A stretch of DNA of 18,331 nucleotides from Lentzea sp. (lineage in GTDB: Bacteria; Actinomycetota; Actinomycetes; Mycobacteriales; Pseudonocardiaceae): the NCBI GenBank assembly GCA_030146905.1, contig JASLAV010000938.1, forward strand, positions 1-18,331, in the 5' to 3' direction. The notes below the pieces were generated by a model. It was not told where the DNA came from. It ran no database searches and worked only from the letters and a program-made list of their open reading frames with translations. Of this stretch, positions 1 through 17,931 are shown in pieces. A program made the position numbers and the translations under genes. Numbering within the stretch: position 1 is the first letter of the stretch; the number at the start of each line of letters is the position of its first letter.

Positions 1-453
1 GTCGCCGTCGCAGATCGCGGCGTCGATCATCGAGTCACCGCGCACGCGCAGCGCGAACACGTTGCTGCCACGCCCCACGAGCCCGCGCGGCAGGCTCAGC
101 ACGTCGTCCACGTGCTCCACGGCCGAGATCGGCGCGCCGGCGGCGATGTCACCGACGACCGGAACGGAGACTGAGTCCTCTGTGGACGGCGCGGAGGTCG
201 CACCGGTCAGGAAGACCCGCACGTCCATCGGCCGCGTCACCGAGGGGCCGCGCTTGAGGAACCCCTTGTCCTCCAATGCGGACAGGTGCTTGGACACCGA
301 AGAGGACGACTTCAGGCCGACTGCCTCGCCGATCTCGCGGGTGCTGGGGGAGTAGCCGTGCTCGACGACCCAGTCGCGGATGGCGACGAGGATCTTCTGC
401 TGGCGTTCCGGCAGCACCGTCGTGTCGAGTTCAAGATCGTCGTAGGCGCTCAT
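1..453 (-). CDS. lexA: LexA-family SOS-type repressor (5' part, runs off the window)
   Basis: The minus-strand frame open from ATG at 453 to the window edge encodes the first 151 residues of a LexA-type repressor. The N-terminal winged helix (about residues 14-70) has the family pattern RQQKIL, GYSPSTREIGEAVGL and LEDKGFLKR. The autocleavage bond is Ala105-Gly106 (VVGDIAAGAPIS) and the catalytic Ser141 lies in RGDSMID. The partner lysine lies beyond the edge. LexA binds DNA as a dimer and cleaves itself when stimulated by RecA. The recognition region reads KSSSSVSKHLSALEDKGFLKRG, whereas the usual actinobacterial LexA has TSTSSVAHQL and a KGFLRRDPNRPRA stretch (from memory). This could therefore be a second, diverged LexA. 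No GAAC-N4-GTTC SOS box lies upstream (454-589). The family call is firm; main copy versus paralogue is open. Confidence 0.9.
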   Translation of the reverse strand, partial: MSAYDDLELDTTVLPERQQKILVAIRDWVVEHGYSPSTREIGEAVGLKSSSSVSKHLSALEDKGFLKRGPSVTRPMDVRVFLTGATSAPSTEDSVSVPVVGDIAAGAPISAVEHVDDVLSLPRGLVGRGSNVFALRVRGDSMIDAAICDGD

Positions 454-460
454 CGGCCAG

Positions 461-466
461 ATAGTA
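461..466 (-). promoter_or_regulatory. -10 element of the lexA-family gene, probably leaderless
   Basis: TACTAT on the minus strand ends 7 bases before the ATG at 453. This spacing places the transcription start at or next to the start codon. No convincing Shine-Dalgarno sequence precedes this ATG and no clear -35 element is seen. Confidence 0.45.
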
Positions 467-512
467 GTTATCGGGTCGCCCGACACGATCGGGTGGTCGC
501 CTGACAAGACAT

Positions 513-528
513 GCAACCTCAGGGTTGC
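513..528. promoter_or_regulatory. Palindromic operator 1, upstream of the SRPBCC gene
   Basis: GCAACC-TCAG-GGTTGC is a perfect 6-bp dyad around a 4-base centre. It is the exact reverse complement of the core of the second operator at 547-562, 34 bp away centre to centre. This dyad type resembles operators I associate with ArsR-family regulators of AHSA1/SRPBCC genes. The regulator itself is not identifiable in the window. Confidence 0.65.
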
Positions 529-542
529 GCATGCTTCGCGCC

Positions 543-566
543 ATGTGCAACCCTGAGGTTGCACAT
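543..566. promoter_or_regulatory. Palindromic operator 2, upstream of the SRPBCC gene
   Basis: This is a 24-bp dyad with perfect 10-base arms (ATGTGCAACC and GGTTGCACAT) around CTGA. It ends 23 bases before the SRPBCC start codon, where a bound protein would block transcription of that gene. The divergent lexA-family promoter is about 80 bp away and might also be affected. Confidence 0.7.
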
Positions 567-589
567 GTTGACGGACCTTGGGAGTTGTC

Positions 590-1021
590 GTGAGCGTGGA
601 CCGGATCGAACGCGAGACCCTGATCGAGGCACCGCTGGAGCGGGTCTGGCGGCTGGTGACGGAGCCGGGGTTCTGGGTGGCCTCCGAACCGTCGGGCACC
701 GCCGTCGAGGGGGAGACGACCGTGTGCAAGAACGAGCAGTACGGCGACTTCCCCGTGCGGGTCGAGACCGTGACGCCGCAGAGCTACGTGTCGTACCGCT
801 GGGCCAGTGCGTTCGCGGGGCAGGAGCTGGCCGCGGACAACACGACGCTGGTCGAGTTCACCCTCACGCCGGAGGGCTCGGGAACGCGGCTGCGCGTCGT
901 CGAGAGCGGGTTCTCCTCGCTCGCCGGCTCGGAGGAGCTGCGCGTGAAGGCGCACCAGGACAACACCGGTGGCTGGCAGGAAGTCCTCGACACGTTCAAG
1001 AAGAAGGTCGAGAGCCTTTAG
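590..1021 (+). CDS. SRPBCC (AHSA1-type) domain protein
   Basis: A 143-aa protein made almost entirely of one START/Bet v1-like SRPBCC domain. The opening IERETLIEAPLERVWRLVTEP is the classic first strand and helix of the AHSA1 family. WASAFAG, TTLVEFTLTPEGSGTRLRVVESGF and the C-terminal helix with NTGGWQEVLDTFKKKVE also fit. These domains form a hydrophobic pocket; the ligand here is unknown. GTG at 590 was chosen because GGGAG (580-584) sits 5 bases upstream; TTG at 578 is in frame but overlaps that ribosome site. Two strong palindromes precede the gene. In many actinobacteria an ArsR regulator accompanies such a gene, but here the next gene, 9 bases on, is a TetR regulator with its own promoter module. 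Confidence 0.85.
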   Translation: MSVDRIERETLIEAPLERVWRLVTEPGFWVASEPSGTAVEGETTVCKNEQYGDFPVRVETVTPQSYVSYRWASAFAGQELAADNTTLVEFTLTPEGSGTRLRVVESGFSSLAGSEELRVKAHQDNTGGWQEVLDTFKKKVESL

Positions 1022-10660: not shown

Positions 10661-11836
10661 GTGATCGACGCTCCCCGCTGGCTGCCGCCGTTCACGGCGG
10701 TGCTGGCCGTGCTCGGCGCGCTGTTCGGGCTGGCGGTGCTCCCCGGCCCACCCGGCTCCCTGGTGCCCGCACTCACGGTCGGCGTGGTCGCGCAGCTCGC
10801 CGCGACCGCCGTGGTCCACCGGTTCCGCATGTCAGCTCCACACCTGGGTATGGCGGCGGTGACGGTGGTCGCGGCGCTGCTGTTCCTGCTCGGCTCCCCG
10901 TGGCGCCCGTTGCTGATCGCCCAAGGGGTGCCGTGGGTTCCGGTCATGCTGGCTTGGGCGACGATCCTCGCGGTGGACAACGCGCGCACTCCGCGTCAGT
11001 TGCGGATCGCTGCGGCGTTCGCGTTCCTCTACCCACTGGCTGCGGGCCTGCGCCAGATGCTGGACGGTGACGGTCCCTCCGCGCTGTCCACGCTGGCCGC
11101 CGCAGCCGCCCCGATTCTCGGTGGCCTGGCGATCGGGCTGGCAGGCCGGTTGCGGCGGGCACGGCGGGACCGGGTGGCCGCGCTCGCTCGTGAGCGGGCC
11201 GAGGTGGCCAGGCGGGCACGGGACGACGAGCGGCAGCGCCTGGCCGCGGAGATCCACGACAGCCTCGGCCACGTGTTGACCTTGCTGGTGTTGCAGGCCA
11301 ACGCGTTGACCGTCACCACCACCGACCACCATGCCCAGGACGCCGCGAGGCGGATGAGCCGCCTGGGCACCGACGGCCTCACCGAACTGCGGCAGCTGCT
11401 GCAGCTGCTCAGCCCGCCGGAGCGGGCCACCCCGGCTGTGGCCGCACTGGTGGACGACGCGCGGGCCGCGGGACAGGACGTGCTGCTCGACCTGACCGGG
11501 GACGTCGACGGGTTGCCCCCGGTCCTCGCGCGCATCCTGCACCAGGTGGTGCGGGAGGGCCTGACCAACGCCCGCCGACACGCGCCGGGCGCGACCACGA
11601 AGGTACGGGTCGCCGTGGGGGACGACGTGCACGTGGTTGTGCTCAACGGTCCCGGTGGCTCGGATCCCGGTCCGGGCACCGGGCGGGGACTGGCCGCGGT
11701 ACGGCACAACGTGGCCGTGCTCGGCGGGATCTGTGAGCACGCGCCCACCGATGACGGCGGCTACGCTCTGCGCATCAGCCTGCCCGCCGGCAGCGCTGAG
11801 GACTCGGACGACACCGGGGCGGGGGAGCAGCGGTGA
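10661..11836 (+). CDS. Two-component sensor histidine kinase (NarL/DesK type, HisKA_3)
   Basis: A 391-aa membrane kinase. The N-terminus has about five hydrophobic helices (residues 12-28, 36-54, 62-78, 92-106, 115-130, with another near 143-162) and no large extracellular sensor domain. A cytoplasmic coiled linker follows (RARRDRVAALARERAEVARRARDD). The HisKA_3 dimerisation box ERQRLAAEIHDSLGH holds phospho-acceptor His199. The HATPase domain shows an N-box (EGLTNARRHAP) and a G-box (GRGLAAVRHNV). GTG 10661 is supported by the leaderless -10; ATG 10637 is an in-frame alternative that would contain that -10. The stop overlaps the next start (GTGA), so kinase and regulator are translationally coupled. 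The signal is unknown. The divergent carboxylesterase is a likely target. Confidence 0.92.
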   Translation: MIDAPRWLPPFTAVLAVLGALFGLAVLPGPPGSLVPALTVGVVAQLAATAVVHRFRMSAPHLGMAAVTVVAALLFLLGSPWRPLLIAQGVPWVPVMLAWATILAVDNARTPRQLRIAAAFAFLYPLAAGLRQMLDGDGPSALSTLAAAAAPILGGLAIGLAGRLRRARRDRVAALARERAEVARRARDDERQRLAAEIHDSLGHVLTLLVLQANALTVTTTDHHAQDAARRMSRLGTDGLTELRQLLQLLSPPERATPAVAALVDDARAAGQDVLLDLTGDVDGLPPVLARILHQVVREGLTNARRHAPGATTKVRVAVGDDVHVVVLNGPGGSDPGPGTGRGLAAVRHNVAVLGGICEHAPTDDGGYALRISLPAGSAEDSDDTGAGEQR

Positions 11837-12477
11837 GCACGGATCCCCAACCGGTGCCGGTCGTCGTGGTGGACGACGAGCCCATGGTGTGCGAGTTCCT
11901 GCGCACCATCCTGTCCGCGACCGGCGAGATCACCGTGGCCGCGGTGGCACACGACGGCACCGAGGGCATCGCCATGACCCGTCGGCACCATCCCTCGGTG
12001 GTGCTGATGGACCTGAGGATGCCGGGCATGGACGGAGCCGCCGCGACCCGCGAGATCCGCGCACTGCCCGACCCGCCCGCCGTCGTCGCGATGACCACCT
12101 TCGACACCGACGAACACGTATTCGCCGCCCTCGACGCCGGAGCGCACGGCTTCCTGCTCAAAACCACCCCACCGAACCAACTGGTACCGCTGGTGCTGGC
12201 CGCGGCGACCGGTGCGTCGGTGCTCTCTCCCGAGGCACTGCGCCGGTTGCGTGAGCGCCGCGCACCCAAGCCCCGCCCGCGCCCCGACGCGGAACTGGAC
12301 GCACTCGGCGAACGGGAGCGCGCGGTCCTCGCACTGGTCGCAGAAGGACTGTCCAATGCGGACATCGCCGCCCGGCTCTACCTCAGTGAGGGCACCGTGA
12401 AAGGACACGTCTCCCGGCTGATGGCACAGCTGCACTGCGCCAACCGCACACAGCTCGCCTTGCGCGCGGCCCGATGA
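11833..12477 (+). CDS. NarL/FixJ (LuxR-HTH) response regulator
   Basis: A 214-aa response regulator. The receiver domain spans residues 8-125: acidic pair Asp14/Asp15, phospho-acceptor Asp60 (VVLMDLRMPGMDG), a Thr in VAMTTF and Lys110 (GFLLKTTPP). A Pro/Arg linker (144-153) leads to a LuxR-type helix-turn-helix: LGERERAVLALVAEGLSNADIAARLYLSEGTVKGHVSRLMAQL. All catalytic residues are present, so it should be phosphorylated by the kinase whose gene it overlaps by 4 bases. Candidate binding sites are the phased repeats at 10576-10610. It may control its own operon and the carboxylesterase. Two hairpins follow the stop. Confidence 0.93.
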   Translation: MSTDPQPVPVVVVDDEPMVCEFLRTILSATGEITVAAVAHDGTEGIAMTRRHHPSVVLMDLRMPGMDGAAATREIRALPDPPAVVAMTTFDTDEHVFAALDAGAHGFLLKTTPPNQLVPLVLAAATGASVLSPEALRRLRERRAPKPRPRPDAELDALGERERAVLALVAEGLSNADIAARLYLSEGTVKGHVSRLMAQLHCANRTQLALRAAR

Positions 12478-12611: not shown

Positions 12612-13451
12612 CTACCGCGGGTCCACCTGAAGAGTCACGGTCCGGTTCAGGGCGGGGTCTGCGCCCGCGTGCGGGGCGCTCGACTGCTCCGCCGACCGCA
12701 GGACGAACGCGGTCGGCGGCTGGTCGCCCGCCACCGCGAGCACCTCGACGGCCGCGGCCGCCCTCGCCACGGCTGTCGCCGATCCGCCGGTCGCCGGGCC
12801 GCCGGGTACCGCCAGCCCGTGCCCCAGCACCGTCACGCGAACTTCTTTGCCGCGCAGCACCTGTCCCCAGCGTTCCAGCTGCTGCCGCCCCTGTGGGCTC
12901 AGCATGGTGCTGTCCGGCAGGAACATGCCCTGCAGGAACACCACGCGGACACCGGTGCCGATGGGTTCGACGCGTACGTCCGGGGTTGCCAGCGACGCCA
13001 TCAGCGCTGGGTCCGCGGTGTCCGGGGTGACGGCCACCGGCTGGGTCGCTGCCGGTGTGGATGTGCGGGCGTCGGGCGGTTGCTCGTCGTGTGCGGAGGT
13101 GATCGGGAGGAGCACGGCGGCCAGCGCGACGGTGACGAGCGCCAGTGAGCCGCCGATGAAGGCGATCGGTACCGGCTGGGCACGGCGCCTTCCCCTGGTG
13201 ATGTCGGAGATCAACCGCGTGCCGGCCAGTGCCGAGGCGTGCGCCGGGTCCGCGGACAGGACCTCGGCCCACACAGCCTCCGCCTCGGCCAGGTCACCGC
13301 GCTGGGCGTGCACTCTGGCGAGCAGGTCCAGGGTGGCCGGGTCACGGCCGAGGCCATCGAGGATCAGCTTCGCCGCGGCATGATCACCTGCCCGTGCCAG
13401 ATCCGCCGCTCGTGCCCGGTCGACATCGCGTGCGTGGGAAACGGCGTTCAT
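12612..13451 (-). CDS. TPR - single TM - OmpA-like domain protein (last gene of the Hsp70-like operon)
   Basis: A 279-aa protein. Residues 5-80 are TPR-like helices (AADLARAGDHAAAKLILDGL, LDLLARVHAQRGDLAEAEAVWAEVLSADPAHASAL). A basic stretch (RGRRRAQ) and one membrane helix follow (about 95-118), then a Thr/Pro/Ala linker (120-150). The C-terminal 168-276 region resembles an OmpA-like fold: VVFLQGMFLPDSTMLSPQGRQQLERWGQVL, VTVLGHG, VARAAAAVEVL and the final NRTVTLQV. OmpA domains commonly bind peptidoglycan; this one is diverged and the binding residues are not certain. Predicted topology: TPR inside, OmpA-like part outside. ATG 13451 overlaps the Hsp70 stop (ATGA), so translation is coupled. 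TPR domains often dock on Hsp70 tails, which suits the neighbour, but this is inference. Confidence 0.75.
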   Translation of the reverse strand: MNAVSHARDVDRARAADLARAGDHAAAKLILDGLGRDPATLDLLARVHAQRGDLAEAEAVWAEVLSADPAHASALAGTRLISDITRGRRRAQPVPIAFIGGSLALVTVALAAVLLPITSAHDEQPPDARTSTPAATQPVAVTPDTADPALMASLATPDVRVEPIGTGVRVVFLQGMFLPDSTMLSPQGRQQLERWGQVLRGKEVRVTVLGHGLAVPGGPATGGSATAVARAAAAVEVLAVAGDQPPTAFVLRSAEQSSAPHAGADPALNRTVTLQVDPR

Positions 13452-15937
13452 CGTTGCCGTCCGTTCATGCTGCGGACGCCACCTGGCGAGCGGTCCTGCC
13501 GGCCGGCGGGCCACAGCCCGCGCAGCTCTTGGTTGATCACGGGCAGGAGGCGCCAGTTGCCCTCGGCGAGTGCCTGGTTCCCCTCGGCGATCAGCGCTCG
13601 GGCACGCACCGGCTGGGACAGCTTCGGCAGGTTGGAGCGGAAGTGGTGGAAGATGGCGATGTCGTAGGTCTCGTCGCGCTTCATCACCGTGGTCGCGAGG
13701 TGGACGGCGCGGTTGAGCAACTCCTCGACGGCGGCGCGGTCGGGGTCGGCGCGGAGGTCCGCTGCGCGGCGTTCGACGTCGGCCAGTTCCAGGTGGTCGT
13801 CGGCGGCGCCCTTGCGATCGAGCAACTCCCGGCAGTGCGCGATCTCTTCGTCCAGCTCGTCGAACAGCGCTCGCAGATCGCACTGCTCCTCGACCTCGTC
13901 CAGCACGGCGTGGACGTCCCGCAGGCGCTGGTCCGCGGCTGCCGCGCTGCCGTGGTCCGAGGCGGCGGCACGGACCTCGTCGCGAGCCAGCAGCAGCATC
14001 TGCTCGCCTTCCAGCTGGTCGAGCTTGCGGCGGGCCTGCGCCGGCACGCGTCCGTTCTCCTGCAACGCGGCCAACCGGCCGTGCACCTCGCGCAGCTCGC
14101 GTTCCAGCGTTGCGGCGTCGGGCGGCCGCACGTGGGAGAGGTCGATCTCGGCTTCGAACTGCTCGTCCACCAGCGGCACGTCGGCGACCACGGTGACTCG
14201 CCGCGACTCGTCCACCTCGACGGTGATCTCGACCTCGCTGCCGCTCGGCAGGTCGACCCGGACGTCCTTGGGCCGGATCTCGATCAGGCCGATGCGCAGG
14301 TTGCGGTCGGCGCGCGTTCGCTCGCCCTCGACGAGCGGAATGCGGATGACCGCGTCGGAATCGGTGCGGTGCAGGGCGATCGTGGTGTAGAAGGTGCCGG
14401 ACATCGCGGCCGGCAGCCTGGCTCCCTTGCGCAGGACCGGCGCGAAGGTTCCGTCCGCTTCGGACAGTCCGAGGGAGTTGGTCAGCACCTGCCCGCCGAG
14501 CTCGTTGGTCACGTGCGTGATCGACACAACGGGCGGGTTCACCTTGTACCGCATGCCATCGACATCGATGAGCAGCAAGGCGAACGCCGATGTCGTCCGC
14601 TCGTTCAGCTTCACCTCGGTGACGAACGTGCCTCGCGCGTCGAGGCTGACCTGCGGCGTGCGGAACGGCGGCGTGCCGGTTTCGTTGTCCAGGACGACGT
14701 GGAACCGCGACCAGTCCTGCTCGGTCGTGCTCTCGAACCTTCCCTGCACCGGGACGATGTCCAGGCTCGTGGTGCGTGGATAGCGGAGGTCGGCGGTGAA
14801 CTCGCCCGCGATCGCGCGTGCTTTCGGGCGGTCCAGCGGGACGGTGCTCGCGAACACGGCCGCACCGCGCGCGACCACCGTGCTCGGGTCCTGGCTGTGG
14901 TCCAGTTCGATGCCGAGGCCCACCGCGGGATCTGCGAGCCGCTCGCGCAGGCCTGGAGCCAACGTCGTCCCGCCGACCAGCAGCAGCTTGTCGATGTCAC
15001 CGGTGCCGAGACCGGCCGCGGTGAGTGCTTCGCGGCACAGGTTGATCGCGCGGAGGTAGTACGGCTCGGCGACGCGGTCGACTTCGCCGCGGTGCAGCGC
15101 GTGGTCGAACGCCACCTTGCGGCCGCCGACTTCGAGTTCGACGTCCACCTCGGCGACCTCGTTGCGCGACAACGCGATCTTGGCCCTTTCCGCCGCGTCT
15201 TTGAGCAGCGCGAAGTTGCCTCGCCACAGCGGGTCGTCCCTGCGCACGTCCCGTACACCCAGACCGGCCTCCACCGCCGGTACGAGCAGCCGTTCCACGA
15301 TCGCCCAGTCGATCAGCTTGCCGCCGAGGTGCGGGTCGCCCGCGTGGTCGAGCACGCGCAGCTCGCCGTCGTGGGTGCTGACGATCGCGGAGTCGAACGT
15401 GCCGCCGCCGAAGTCGAACACCATCCAGTACGCGTCGGTGCTCTCGTTCTGGAAGCCGAAGGCGAACGCCGCCGCCGTCGGTTCCTGGACCAGGGGGCAG
15501 TTGCCGAACCCGGCCAGCGCCGCCGCCTCACCGGTGGCGTTGTTCTCGTGCAGGCGGAACGCGGCGGGAACGGTGATGACCGCCGCCGGCGGTGCCTCGC
15601 CGAACACGTGCGCGGCGTCGGCTCGCAGCGACTTGAGCACCTCTGCCGACAGCTGTTGCGGTGTCAGGGAAAGCCCCGCCTTCGGAAACTGCCTGGCCGC
15701 GTCGGCGAGTCCCATCTCCTGCTTGAACTCGATGTGCACGTTGGCGGGGTCGCTCGGGATGCGGTCACGTGCGCTGCGCCCGACGTGCGTGACGCCGGGT
15801 TTGGGGATCCACACGGCGGAAGGCGTGTAGTCCCAGCCCTCGTTGTTCTTGACCACCGACACGGTGCCGTCGTGCACGACGGCCATCGCGCTGTTGGTGG
15901 TGCCGAGGTCGATGCCGAAGTCGATGGTGTCACGCAT
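13448..15937 (-). CDS. Divergent Hsp70-family ATPase with coiled-coil C-terminus
   Basis: An 829-aa protein. The ATPase domain (1-370) is well kept: phosphate-1 loop FGIDLGTTNSA (7-17), the catalytic-type Lys72 (HIEFKQEMG), connect-1 LVQEPTAAAFAFG (149-161), phosphate-2 FDFGGGTFDS (174-183), DPHLGGKLID (201-210), ERAKIALS (250-257) and adenosine motif LLLVGGTTLAPGL (318-330). The hydrophobic DnaK linker ending in DVTPLSLG is replaced by RYPRTTSLDIVPVQ (about 385-398). A beta-rich region (400-580) and a long charged coiled-coil region (about 585-760) follow, so it is about 200 residues longer than DnaK (~620 aa). ATG 15937 has GGAGG 6 bases upstream and overlaps the GrpE-like gene by 8 bases. 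It probably hydrolyses ATP; substrate handling should differ from DnaK. It is not the housekeeping dnaK. Confidence 0.9.
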   Translation of the reverse strand: MRDTIDFGIDLGTTNSAMAVVHDGTVSVVKNNEGWDYTPSAVWIPKPGVTHVGRSARDRIPSDPANVHIEFKQEMGLADAARQFPKAGLSLTPQQLSAEVLKSLRADAAHVFGEAPPAAVITVPAAFRLHENNATGEAAALAGFGNCPLVQEPTAAAFAFGFQNESTDAYWMVFDFGGGTFDSAIVSTHDGELRVLDHAGDPHLGGKLIDWAIVERLLVPAVEAGLGVRDVRRDDPLWRGNFALLKDAAERAKIALSRNEVAEVDVELEVGGRKVAFDHALHRGEVDRVAEPYYLRAINLCREALTAAGLGTGDIDKLLLVGGTTLAPGLRERLADPAVGLGIELDHSQDPSTVVARGAAVFASTVPLDRPKARAIAGEFTADLRYPRTTSLDIVPVQGRFESTTEQDWSRFHVVLDNETGTPPFRTPQVSLDARGTFVTEVKLNERTTSAFALLLIDVDGMRYKVNPPVVSITHVTNELGGQVLTNSLGLSEADGTFAPVLRKGARLPAAMSGTFYTTIALHRTDSDAVIRIPLVEGERTRADRNLRIGLIEIRPKDVRVDLPSGSEVEITVEVDESRRVTVVADVPLVDEQFEAEIDLSHVRPPDAATLERELREVHGRLAALQENGRVPAQARRKLDQLEGEQMLLLARDEVRAAASDHGSAAAADQRLRDVHAVLDEVEEQCDLRALFDELDEEIAHCRELLDRKGAADDHLELADVERRAADLRADPDRAAVEELLNRAVHLATTVMKRDETYDIAIFHHFRSNLPKLSQPVRARALIAEGNQALAEGNWRLLPVINQELRGLWPAGRQDRSPGGVRSMNGRQR

Positions 15938-16427
15938 CGGTTTCCTCCAGAACGTCACCGGGGTAGCCGACGATGACCTGCCCCATTTGAATGCGTTTGC
16001 CTGCCAGGTAGACAGACGGGCGGACGGTCTCCCGCACGATCTCGTGGTGCAGCGACGGATCCGGTTGCATCGTCAGCACCTCCAGCGACAGACCGGGGTG
16101 GAAGGTCGTTCCGTCGTGGTCCTGGATCAGCAGGCCCGCCTCGTCCAGCGCGCGCTGGGCCGCCTGCAGGTAGCGGCCGACCCGCTTGGCCTCACGCGAG
16201 TCCTCTTCGGCGAGGCGGGAGAGCCTGCGTTGCGCGCGCCAGAGGTTCGTGGCGGCGTCGGCGAGGTCCTTCTCCTCCAGTGCCGGGCCGCCTGCATCCT
16301 CGATGGCCTGCGCGGTGAGCTGCTCGACCACCGCGGTGAGCGAGACCGGGTCCGGCCAGCGCGGTGCGGCGATCCGGAACTCGCGGTGGAACCGCCTCTG
16401 CCCGCGCCACTTCGTCCACCTGCTCAT
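15930..16427 (-). CDS. GrpE-like nucleotide exchange factor (diverged)
   Basis: A 165-aa protein: a basic N-terminus, a long charged helix (about 28-98: AIEDAGGPALEEKDLADAATNLWRAQRRLSRLAEEDSREA and on), then a small beta domain (98-157). The beta part follows the GrpE head pattern: AGLLIQDHDGTTFHPGLSLEVL, then EIVRETVRPSVYLAGKRIQMGQVIVG, comparable to the GrpE stretch with a Gly-Tyr turn and RPA-V-V ending. GrpE releases ADP from Hsp70. Identification rests on this pattern and on the gene lying directly before an Hsp70 gene; it is weak by sequence alone. ATG 16427 overlaps the upstream stop (ATGA) and has AGGA upstream. The last 8 bases overlap the Hsp70 start, so the two are tightly coupled. 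Confidence 0.65.
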   Translation of the reverse strand: MSRWTKWRGQRRFHREFRIAAPRWPDPVSLTAVVEQLTAQAIEDAGGPALEEKDLADAATNLWRAQRRLSRLAEEDSREAKRVGRYLQAAQRALDEAGLLIQDHDGTTFHPGLSLEVLTMQPDPSLHHEIVRETVRPSVYLAGKRIQMGQVIVGYPGDVLEETDA

Positions 16428-17830
16428 CTGCGGTCCTGCCAATCAGCGAACAGCGCGTACACGAACGGGGAGACCAGCAGGAAGGCGACGCCGGACCACA
16501 GGAACGGCACCACCGCGTCCCAGGGCGCCGAGCTGACCGCCCACCAGCCGAGGACGAACGCGCAACCGCCCACGAGGTAGGTCGCCACATCTCCCATCAG
16601 CGACCGGTACCAGTCCGCGGTGAGGACTCCCATGGGCGCCCAGGAGAACAGGACGGTCGCGACCACCGAGACCCACGTCGGTGCGTCGAGCAGACCCACC
16701 ACGGAGGTGGTCATCGCCGCGACGAAGAGGGCGAAGACCGCCAGGTTCGACGGCCAGCGGGGTGGCAGCAGCGGGGCGGCAGCCGTGGTCAGCTGCACAG
16801 GACTCCGCGTCACCGCGTTCTGCCTCCCGCGGTCCACCTGCCAGGACTGGACCGGTGTGGCCGCCAGGTTGTCCTCGATGGTCTCCCGGTCGCCCGGCTC
16901 GACCACGAACGACAGTGCCAGCTCCATCAGGTCGGCCGCGCGGTGCCGATCGGCCGCCTTCAGCGCCAGTCCGCAGTTGTTCAGCATCACGGCGACCCTG
17001 TTGCGCTGCTTCGCCGACCACCGGTACCGCTCGTGCGGCGCGAGTTCCTCGAGCCGGTCGGCGAGCTCCGGCAGTTCGGCGACCAGGTCGGCCGCCCTGC
17101 CGTTCGCCCTGTCCGTCAACAACCGGTGGACGTCGTCGACCAGCTCGTCGATCCTTCTGGACGTCGGCTCGGCGGCGGTGCGGCGCGCGTCGTCGATCAG
17201 CCCGGCCGGCACGTCCCACGTGTCGAGCAGGGCCGCGAGCGCCGGTGTGGTGCCGGCCAGTGCGACCTGTGGCCCGAGCAGCGCCCCCGGCAGGGCGCTT
17301 CGCAGCCCGTCCACCGTGGACCCTTCCATCCTGCGGTCGGACAACGTCGCCATCCGGTGCCGCACGTGGGCCCAGAACCCCGGGTGGTCCAATGCGTCCA
17401 TCCACGCGTCCGCGGCGTCGACCCAGAGGTCCTCGTCCGTCTCGGCGTCGAGCGCCTTCGCGTGCGCCTCGACCGCGGCGTCGTGCGCCTCGTGGACCTC
17501 CGCCGGGCATCCGCAGGCACCCGGTTCGCCCCACCACCAGAACAGCTCGTCCACCAAGCGGTGATCAGGACGTTCCAGCGCGTCGAACGCCGCGCGCACC
17601 TCCTGCGCCGAAGGCGGGCGCCGCAACGGCAACCGCCGGTCGCCGGGAACCGTGCCGCTTCCGAGTTCGAGTGCGCCGAGCAGCAGGTGACGTTGTGCGC
17701 GCACCTGCGCAGGCCTGGCGTTCGTGGCGAGCCCGACGACGCGGAACGGGTTGCGCCGGTACAGGTCCGGCCCCGCGATCTCGCGCAACCGGGTCGCGGC
17801 CACGCGACTTCTGTCCTGGCTGATCGGCAT
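16424..17830 (-). CDS. J-like domain (no visible HPD motif) membrane protein, first gene of the Hsp70-like operon
   Basis: A 468-aa protein. Residues 27-100 resemble a degenerate J domain: NPFRVVGL (27-34), then the helix ARPAQVRAQRHLLLGALELG (38-57), a Pro/Arg-rich loop where HPD is expected, then PSAQEVRAAFDALERPDHRLVDELFWWW (73-100), like the J-domain end where a sub-unit is followed by Leu-x-Asp-Pro. The middle (110-350) is helical and TPR-like (ADLVAELPELADRLEEL, NRVAVMLNNCGLALKAADRHRAADLMELAL). The C-terminus has four membrane helices (about 362-380, 386-406, 416-434, 440-461). ATG 17830 follows the leaderless -10 TAGCGT by 6 bases. The gene overlaps the GrpE-like gene by 4 bases. I infer a membrane-bound co-chaperone or recruiter for the Hsp70. 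The J assignment rests on pattern and context. Confidence 0.6.
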   Translation of the reverse strand: MPISQDRSRVAATRLREIAGPDLYRRNPFRVVGLATNARPAQVRAQRHLLLGALELGSGTVPGDRRLPLRRPPSAQEVRAAFDALERPDHRLVDELFWWWGEPGACGCPAEVHEAHDAAVEAHAKALDAETDEDLWVDAADAWMDALDHPGFWAHVRHRMATLSDRRMEGSTVDGLRSALPGALLGPQVALAGTTPALAALLDTWDVPAGLIDDARRTAAEPTSRRIDELVDDVHRLLTDRANGRAADLVAELPELADRLEELAPHERYRWSAKQRNRVAVMLNNCGLALKAADRHRAADLMELALSFVVEPGDRETIEDNLAATPVQSWQVDRGRQNAVTRSPVQLTTAAAPLLPPRWPSNLAVFALFVAAMTTSVVGLLDAPTWVSVVATVLFSWAPMGVLTADWYRSLMGDVATYLVGGCAFVLGWWAVSSAPWDAVVPFLWSGVAFLLVSPFVYALFADWQDRR

Positions 17831-17836
17831 GAGATC

Positions 17837-17842
17837 ACGCTA
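17837..17842 (-). promoter_or_regulatory. Leaderless -10 element of the Hsp70-like operon
   Basis: TAGCGT on the minus strand ends 6 bases before ATG 17830. No ribosome site is visible. No HAIR (CTTGAGT) or CIRCE repeat is present upstream, so classical heat-shock control by HspR or HrcA is not supported. Confidence 0.55.
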
Positions 17843-17931
17843 TGGCCGTGGTGCCACCCGGCGCCGCCCGCTGACCTCTTCCTGCCAGCGCACCCTGGCG
17901 GGCAGGGCACGGCGATCACGATCGCAGCACC

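Follow-up and report, generated by a model that had tools for sequence, protein, structure and literature searches.

Four conserved, overlapping genes in Lentzea sp. encode an Hsp70 with co-chaperone-like membrane partners, a candidate envelope machine

An 18,331-nucleotide stretch of DNA from Lentzea sp. (contig JASLAV010000938.1, referred to here as the window) carries four genes on its minus strand, A to D, that overlap by 4 bp (A/B), 8 bp (B/C), and 4 bp (C/D), just as a preliminary description of this DNA had stated. They encode a J-like membrane protein (A), a GrpE-like protein (B), a long Hsp70 (C), and a protein with tetratricopeptide repeats (TPR), a membrane span, and an OmpA-like outer part (D); coordinates are given in Table 1. 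The evidence leans, if only modestly, toward this operon encoding a dedicated Hsp70 machine that is tethered to the membrane, helps to assemble or sense the envelope, and is controlled by a kinase in many lineages. A list of parts suited to an Hsp70 cycle, combined with two membrane partners and outer domains, points to an envelope machine, and the kinase genes found in relatives point to a role in control or signaling. Overall, the observations in the preliminary description are confirmed, and its interpretation is partly supported.

Conservation of the group was assessed in 71 fetched loci. The first set comprises 45 loci from one genome scan with the B profile, and these, along with the window, supplied the family profiles; the second comprises 26 family loci, 18 of them new, such that 8 loci were fetched twice and 63 are distinct. 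Iterated profiles recover A, B, and C in all 45 loci of the first set and D in 41 (two of the four misses are at contig ends), and in the second set A, B, and C are found in 26/26 loci and D in 23/26. The presence of B is by construction, because the loci were chosen by B, but this does not apply to A, C, or D. The four families are collinear on one strand in 62 of the 71 fetched loci (54 of the 63 distinct ones), which indicates, at the level of gene content and order, that the grouping is not due to chance. Such joint conservation was a check that the preliminary description had itself proposed. The deviating loci are L036 and L037, where A follows D, and L044, where A is on the opposite strand and D is missing; D is also missing in L007, L010, L020, and L121 to L123.

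The distribution is patchy, with matches in 31 of 297 genomes drawn from the host family (one of them weak) and in 4 of 396 drawn from the whole phylum, where the only strong match is in the genome at the center of the draw. All 10 genomes tested also contain a canonical GrpE with an adjoining Hsp70 frame, and the four-gene set is therefore an accessory addition. Full-text literature searches, whose coverage mostly excludes subscription journals, returned no description of the operon that we recognized.

Protein C is a genuine member of the Hsp70 family, although it is not DnaK; its ATPase site is intact, and a substrate-binding domain is present. It matches Pfam HSP70 at 4.3e-70, and two separate parts of the C profile (44 rows) match Geobacillus DnaK, the first (residues 7 to 369) covering the ATPase domain and the second (residues 491 to 636) aligning to DnaK residues 367 to 503, the substrate-binding beta domain, with an i-Evalue of 2e-11. 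Seven nucleotide-site positions, labeled after DnaK, are invariant in 44/44 C proteins. The gap between the two parts is ~15 residues in Geobacillus DnaK and ~120 in C, and in the AlphaFold2 model of C (mean predicted local distance difference test [pLDDT] score of 90.2) it is filled by a beta domain, with a long helical region at the end of the protein. A Foldseek search with this model gives DnaK as the top match (2.2e-41 for an integrative model and 3.4e-40 for the crystal structure 4b9q).

The HPD-Arg167 contact is how J proteins start the Hsp70 cycle, and R167-D35 and L391-H33 are contacts between DnaK and the J domain (PMC13012618). At the position of C that corresponds to R167, taken from the profile alignment to DnaK, proline is found in 42/44 proteins and threonine in 2/44, and arginine is found in none. 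A VLLLDV-like linker motif is likewise missing from residues 350 to 520 in 44/44 C proteins, and the inserted beta domain of ~100 residues sits there. None of the 70 A proteins has the HPD motif; 17 of them have GAD within the J-like region. Arginine is retained at the R167 position in two other Hsp70 frames, which adjoin divergent GrpE matches (L057 and L064). Both sides of the classic J-domain/Hsp70 contact, HPD in A and Arg167 in C, are thus absent from the set. A J-like A does lie beside an Hsp70, as in the preliminary description, but a J-like part without HPD and an Hsp70 without the matching arginine cannot be regarded as an ordinary J/Hsp70 pair.

Because the HPD motif and its partner Arg167 are both absent, ATP hydrolysis by C would be triggered otherwise than through the classic J contact. 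Provided that A does act on C, a nonclassical trigger is likely; alternatively, A could serve only as an anchor. More speculatively, the set may form an Hsp70 relay across the membrane whose switch has been rewired and in which ATP hydrolysis would be gated by the state of the envelope (through A and D) or by phosphorylation by the operon kinase, and not by a classic J protein. The loss of the HPD-Arg167 residues and the linker, along with the insertion of a beta domain between the Hsp70 domains, suggests this relay, which we regard as possible but tentative.

For the N-terminal part of A, a profile of 28 rows, one of which was contributed by the short J-like protein that a sister set in L036 encodes (see below), matches J domains in 10 of its 11 Protein Data Bank (PDB) hits at an E value of ≤10 (best E value, 0.053), and four of these ten are constructs of E. 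coli DnaJ. In the AlphaFold2 model (mean pLDDT, 91.4), helices at residues 28 to 32, 40 to 55, 75 to 86, and 88 to 96 follow the order of a J domain and are succeeded by a large helical domain, which dominates fold searches with the whole model, and by about four membrane helices. The A protein of the window has four partly overlapping hydrophobic segments, and the terminal helices of the model agree with about four spans. Taken alone, it matches no Pfam family at an E value of ≤1. The sole match of the A profile among the frames of L046 to L064 (E value, 0.0032), a DnaJ, carries HPD and four CxxCxGxG zinc-finger motifs. The J likeness of A appears to be specific, although weak and without HPD.

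The other end of A is variable. The number of hydrophobic segments differs widely among A proteins, and in some of the longer relatives an outer part resembling Septum_form, a family matched at an E value of ≤0.1 by 14/70 A relatives, replaces the approximately four spans; in L014, this part lies beyond a single membrane span. Right behind the J-like helices, the C-x-C-x4-H-x2-H motif is a possible metal site.

Alignment of B with canonical GrpE by hhalign gives a P value of 1.5e-4 and a probability of 51 over 62 columns, and in a small set the B profile matches canonical GrpE frames at E values of 4.8e-4 and 9.9e-4 and a divergent GrpE at 0.001. Pfam GrpE is matched at an E value of ≤0.1 by 10/41 B relatives (best, 4.1e-4), although not by the B protein of the window alone, and some databases already label B relatives as GrpE. 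B thus appears to carry a GrpE-type C-terminal beta domain. Together with the J likeness of A and the collinearity of the genes, this supports the earlier proposal that the Hsp70, which is not DnaK, is accompanied by co-chaperone-like proteins of its own.

The family profile of D matches TPR proteins in the PDB (best, 5.2e-9) as well as the OmpA-like structures PA0833-PD (1.6e-8) and YiaD (8.4e-8). Pfam OmpA is matched at an E value of ≤0.01 by 13/39 D relatives, and the D protein of the window alone gives 0.014, which falls short of the cutoff. The OmpA likeness is thus weak for the window protein by itself and firm for the family profile. A hydrophobic segment is present in all 27 D proteins longer than 250 aa, with exactly one in 22 of them; D in the window also has one. 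With about four spans in A and one in D, the two membrane proteins and the OmpA-like outer part that had been described both stand.

In 39 of the 71 loci (36 of the 63 distinct ones), the same strand carries a gene for a Ser/Thr kinase no more than 6 kb away, and genes for a FHA/winged-helix protein and a PP2C phosphatase are found in 15 and 6 loci, respectively. The fullest form is a seven-gene operon in L014 (A, FHA, PP2C, kinase, B, C, and D) with a 4-bp overlap at all six junctions. The window has no kinase, FHA/winged-helix, or PP2C gene, and the four-gene set previously described, although accurate for this DNA, is therefore a reduced form of an operon to which relatives add a kinase and, in some cases, the other two genes. 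On a quick tree of C with long branches, the presence of the kinase needs 5 changes, a count that is blind to gain versus loss; the simplest interpretation is that the Lentzea group lost the kinase, because Actinocrispum, which is adjacent in the tree, keeps it. Nine genomes whose locus lacks the kinase have no close kinase (E value of ≤1e-60) or FHA protein (E value of ≤1e-5) elsewhere, and the positive controls match in 3/3 cases. In two Lentzea-type loci (L001 and L099), a gene for a different kinase, oriented the opposite way, lies immediately upstream of A. The Actinocrispum genome of L005 (G003) has a second operon-type pair of FHA and kinase genes (contig C13, 33436 to 35911), perhaps from a second copy of the system.

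These genes also bear on the idea that the set senses nothing and serves to fold one specific client or a few, which would be membrane or secreted proteins, in the manner of E. coli HscC with DjlB and DjlC. The Lentzea form, without signaling genes, would suit such a machine, and the layout proposed for HscC with DjlB and DjlC is that of a specialized Hsp70 that has J proteins of its own and probably acts on transmembrane clients (PMC8215388). However, the kinase, FHA/winged-helix, and PP2C genes of relatives indicate signaling, and HscC lacks the GrpE signature and is probably independent of GrpE, according to the same source, whereas the present set keeps a GrpE-like gene. We consider this explanation unlikely.

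If the operon does encode a membrane-tethered machine, the cytoplasmic part of A and the TPR of D would keep C on the inner side of the membrane, with A, B, C, and D binding one another and B recharging C with ATP. The outer parts of D and of the long A proteins may touch the wall or report on it, and the machine may assemble, remodel, or sense envelope proteins. Where kinase genes are present, their products could switch the machine or read its state. A conserved Hsp70/J-like pair without the HPD-Arg167 contact is a natural test of other ways to drive the Hsp70 cycle, and the proposed machine would tie Hsp70 chaperones to Ser/Thr kinase signaling and the cell envelope in large-genome actinobacteria.

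Several results weigh against this proposal. The J likeness of A is weak: with the full-length profile, DnaJ accounts for only 4/22 PDB matches at an E value of ≤5 (best, 0.72) and is outranked by unrelated helical proteins, and Pfam DnaJ is not among the best 25 of the 28 families listed for the 70 A proteins. Membrane tethering via A is not general, because a clear hydrophobic span is missing from 5/48 A proteins, among them the ones from L036 and L037. No GrpE is found among the 6 PDB matches of the B profile (E value of ≤5) or the 32 matches of the B protein of the window (E value of ≤10). In OmpA-type domains, a pair of Asp and Arg residues holds peptidoglycan; the D proteins have the Arg in 39/39 cases and the Asp in only 4/39, which makes wall binding by D doubtful. 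Finally, the kinase is missing in 27/63 loci and from the window and is thus not essential.

Some of these weaknesses could mean that the likenesses of A, B, and D to J, GrpE, and OmpA are superficial and that the set is a loosely linked signaling cluster around an extra Hsp70. Weak single-sequence scores (0.014 for D against OmpA, none for A, and none to GrpE for B) and the PDB search with the B profile fit that explanation, but the family-level tests for A, B, and D agree in direction and the gene order is kept in 54/63 distinct loci, so that we find it highly improbable.

The preliminary description had held a role in defense to be equally open. The set could indeed be a conflict system directed at phages or competitors, in which Hsp70 sets a threshold at which an effector is assembled or released, as has been suggested for GAP1-N2 GTPase systems that bear Hsp70 and GrpE. 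The patchy presence (31/297 host-family genomes), the variable C-terminal parts of A, the association with kinases, and the decayed-looking copies (L121 to L123 and perhaps L045) are compatible with this, and the closest published gene sets that we found are predicted conflict systems (PMC7159879). However, the PADLOC-DB 2023 models match 0/4 operon proteins, no variable effector gene was noticed, and GAP1-N2 is found in 0/20 loci and has no match in 14/20 genomes. Among the best 25 of 47 PADLOC models that match proteins in the flanks, each of which matches 5 members, most are of the kinase type, and one is a TPR model. A defense island was also considered, but neither these nor the best 25 of 129 Pfam families show any sign of one in the flanks, a weak test with no control set (120 of 124 chosen proteins from 22 loci and the window, four operon kinases being left out). 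Defense is thus somewhat less favored than an envelope role, and a conflict system seems to us an improbable account of these genes.

In the window, L001, and L099, GCCATAGCGT directly precedes the ATG of A, and the gap between TAGCGT and the ATG is 6, 6, and 7 nt, respectively. The single leaderless promoter that had been described is therefore plausible as a putative feature of these genomes, but a consensus promoter scan found none, and a small gene ahead of A overlaps its called start by 4 bp in L002 and L004, both of which count against it as a general feature. A 25-bp block that precedes the putative −10 element by ~24 bp in the three Lentzea-type genomes is a possible operator, and a related palindrome is seen in L003.

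Two plus-strand genes (10661 to 12477 of the window) converge on D; the second (11854 to 12477) looks by eye like a response regulator, and the preceding gene may be its partner kinase. The closest named relatives by B identity are Lentzea (80 to 88%), and in the tree the C protein of the window is closest to that of Lentzea xinjiangensis (91% identical). The locus L003, whose record bears the title Nocardia sp. NRRL S-836, groups with Lentzea. The C protein of “Rhodococcus rhodnii” NRRL B-16535 (12.4-Mb assembly) is nearly identical to that of Kibdelosporangium aridum (L027/L030); the Rhodococcus label is probably wrong, and horizontal transfer between the two is therefore not proposed here. 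Some copies may be decaying or may contain sequence errors: B lies in two frames in L045, B has an in-frame TGA and D is missing in L121 and L122, and C is broken and D is missing in L123. A fusion of B and C in L045 was rejected because the long frame arises from the end of B being in another frame.

Two Streptomyces loci carry a sister set beside the A-to-D operon on the other strand (L036, 3 to 8621; L037, 5 to 7885). It consists of a ClpB-like AAA protein, a Ser/Thr kinase, a TPR protein, a short protein that is J-like by eye, and another Hsp70 (the Pfam search covered only the genes of L036), and in L037 it also holds a B-like gene. In L036, an Hsp70 with an ATPase domain only immediately precedes B.

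Table 1. Coordinates of the operon genes, upstream elements, and protein domains in the window
Feature	Position	Strand	Length	Remark
Gene A	17830-16424	minus	468 aa	
Gene B	16427-15930	minus	165 aa	
Gene C	15937-13448	minus	829 aa	
Gene D	13451-12612	minus	279 aa	
Putative −10 element TAGCGT for leaderless A start	17837-17842	minus		kept in window, L001, and L099
25-bp block with CGCTG/CAGCG inverted arms	17867-17891	none	25 bp	identical in window, L001, and L099
A, J-like domain	residues ~24-100			no HPD; from N-terminal profile and AlphaFold2 model
A, C-x-C-x4-H-x2-H motif	residues 106-116			kept in 68/70 A proteins
A, helical, possibly TPR-like domain	to residue ~335			
A, about four membrane spans	residues 359-467			from hydrophobic segments and model
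B, GrpE-like beta domain	last ~62 residues			from hhalign to canonical GrpE
C, ATPase domain	residues ~5-367			
C, inserted beta domain	residues ~378-477		~100 residues	six strands in model, ~380-475
C, substrate-binding beta domain	residues ~488-597			
C, long helical tail	residues ~608-806			
D, membrane span	residues 96-114			preceded by TPR part, followed by OmpA-like outer domain

The closest published gene sets that we found are those of the HSP70/GrpE theme of GAP1-N2 GTPase systems, which occurs mainly in actinobacterial and firmicute clusters (eLife 2020; PMC7159879). Like the present operon, these contain HSP70, GrpE, DnaJ- or TPR-bearing proteins, and membrane parts, and another theme of the same systems holds a kinase and PP2C (PMC7159879). 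Their defining components are GAP1 and GTPase genes, together with FNIII-repeat proteins (PMC7159879), whereas A is a J-like membrane protein and D is a TPR-TM-OmpA-like protein. The absence of GAP1-N2 from the 20 tested loci was established by coordinates (GTPases were not searched for separately); matches in the other six genomes, one of them below the family cutoff, all lie outside the fetched loci. With the gene outside every locus, membership in GAP1-N2 systems is rejected for the 20 loci.

The DnaK-DnaJ-GrpE system shares with the A-to-D set the encoding together of Hsp70, J-like, and GrpE-like parts, but the set lacks HPD, the Arg167 equivalent, and a VLLLDV-like linker, has an inserted beta domain and membrane partners, and coexists with a normal GrpE and its Hsp70 frame. 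DjlB and DjlC of E. coli are themselves membrane proteins. Together with HscC they form the nearest layout, in which J proteins are dedicated to a specialized Hsp70 whose clients are probably membrane proteins, although HscC is short (550 to 580 aa) and is without GrpE contact features (PMC8215388). C, in contrast, has 829 aa and its own GrpE-like gene. In systems of the PknH-EmbR kind, a Ser/Thr kinase is paired with a protein that combines FHA and DNA-binding parts. The same pairing of a kinase with a FHA/DNA-binding protein is found in relatives of the A-to-D set, where, in some lineages only, the pair lies inside the string of Hsp70 genes.

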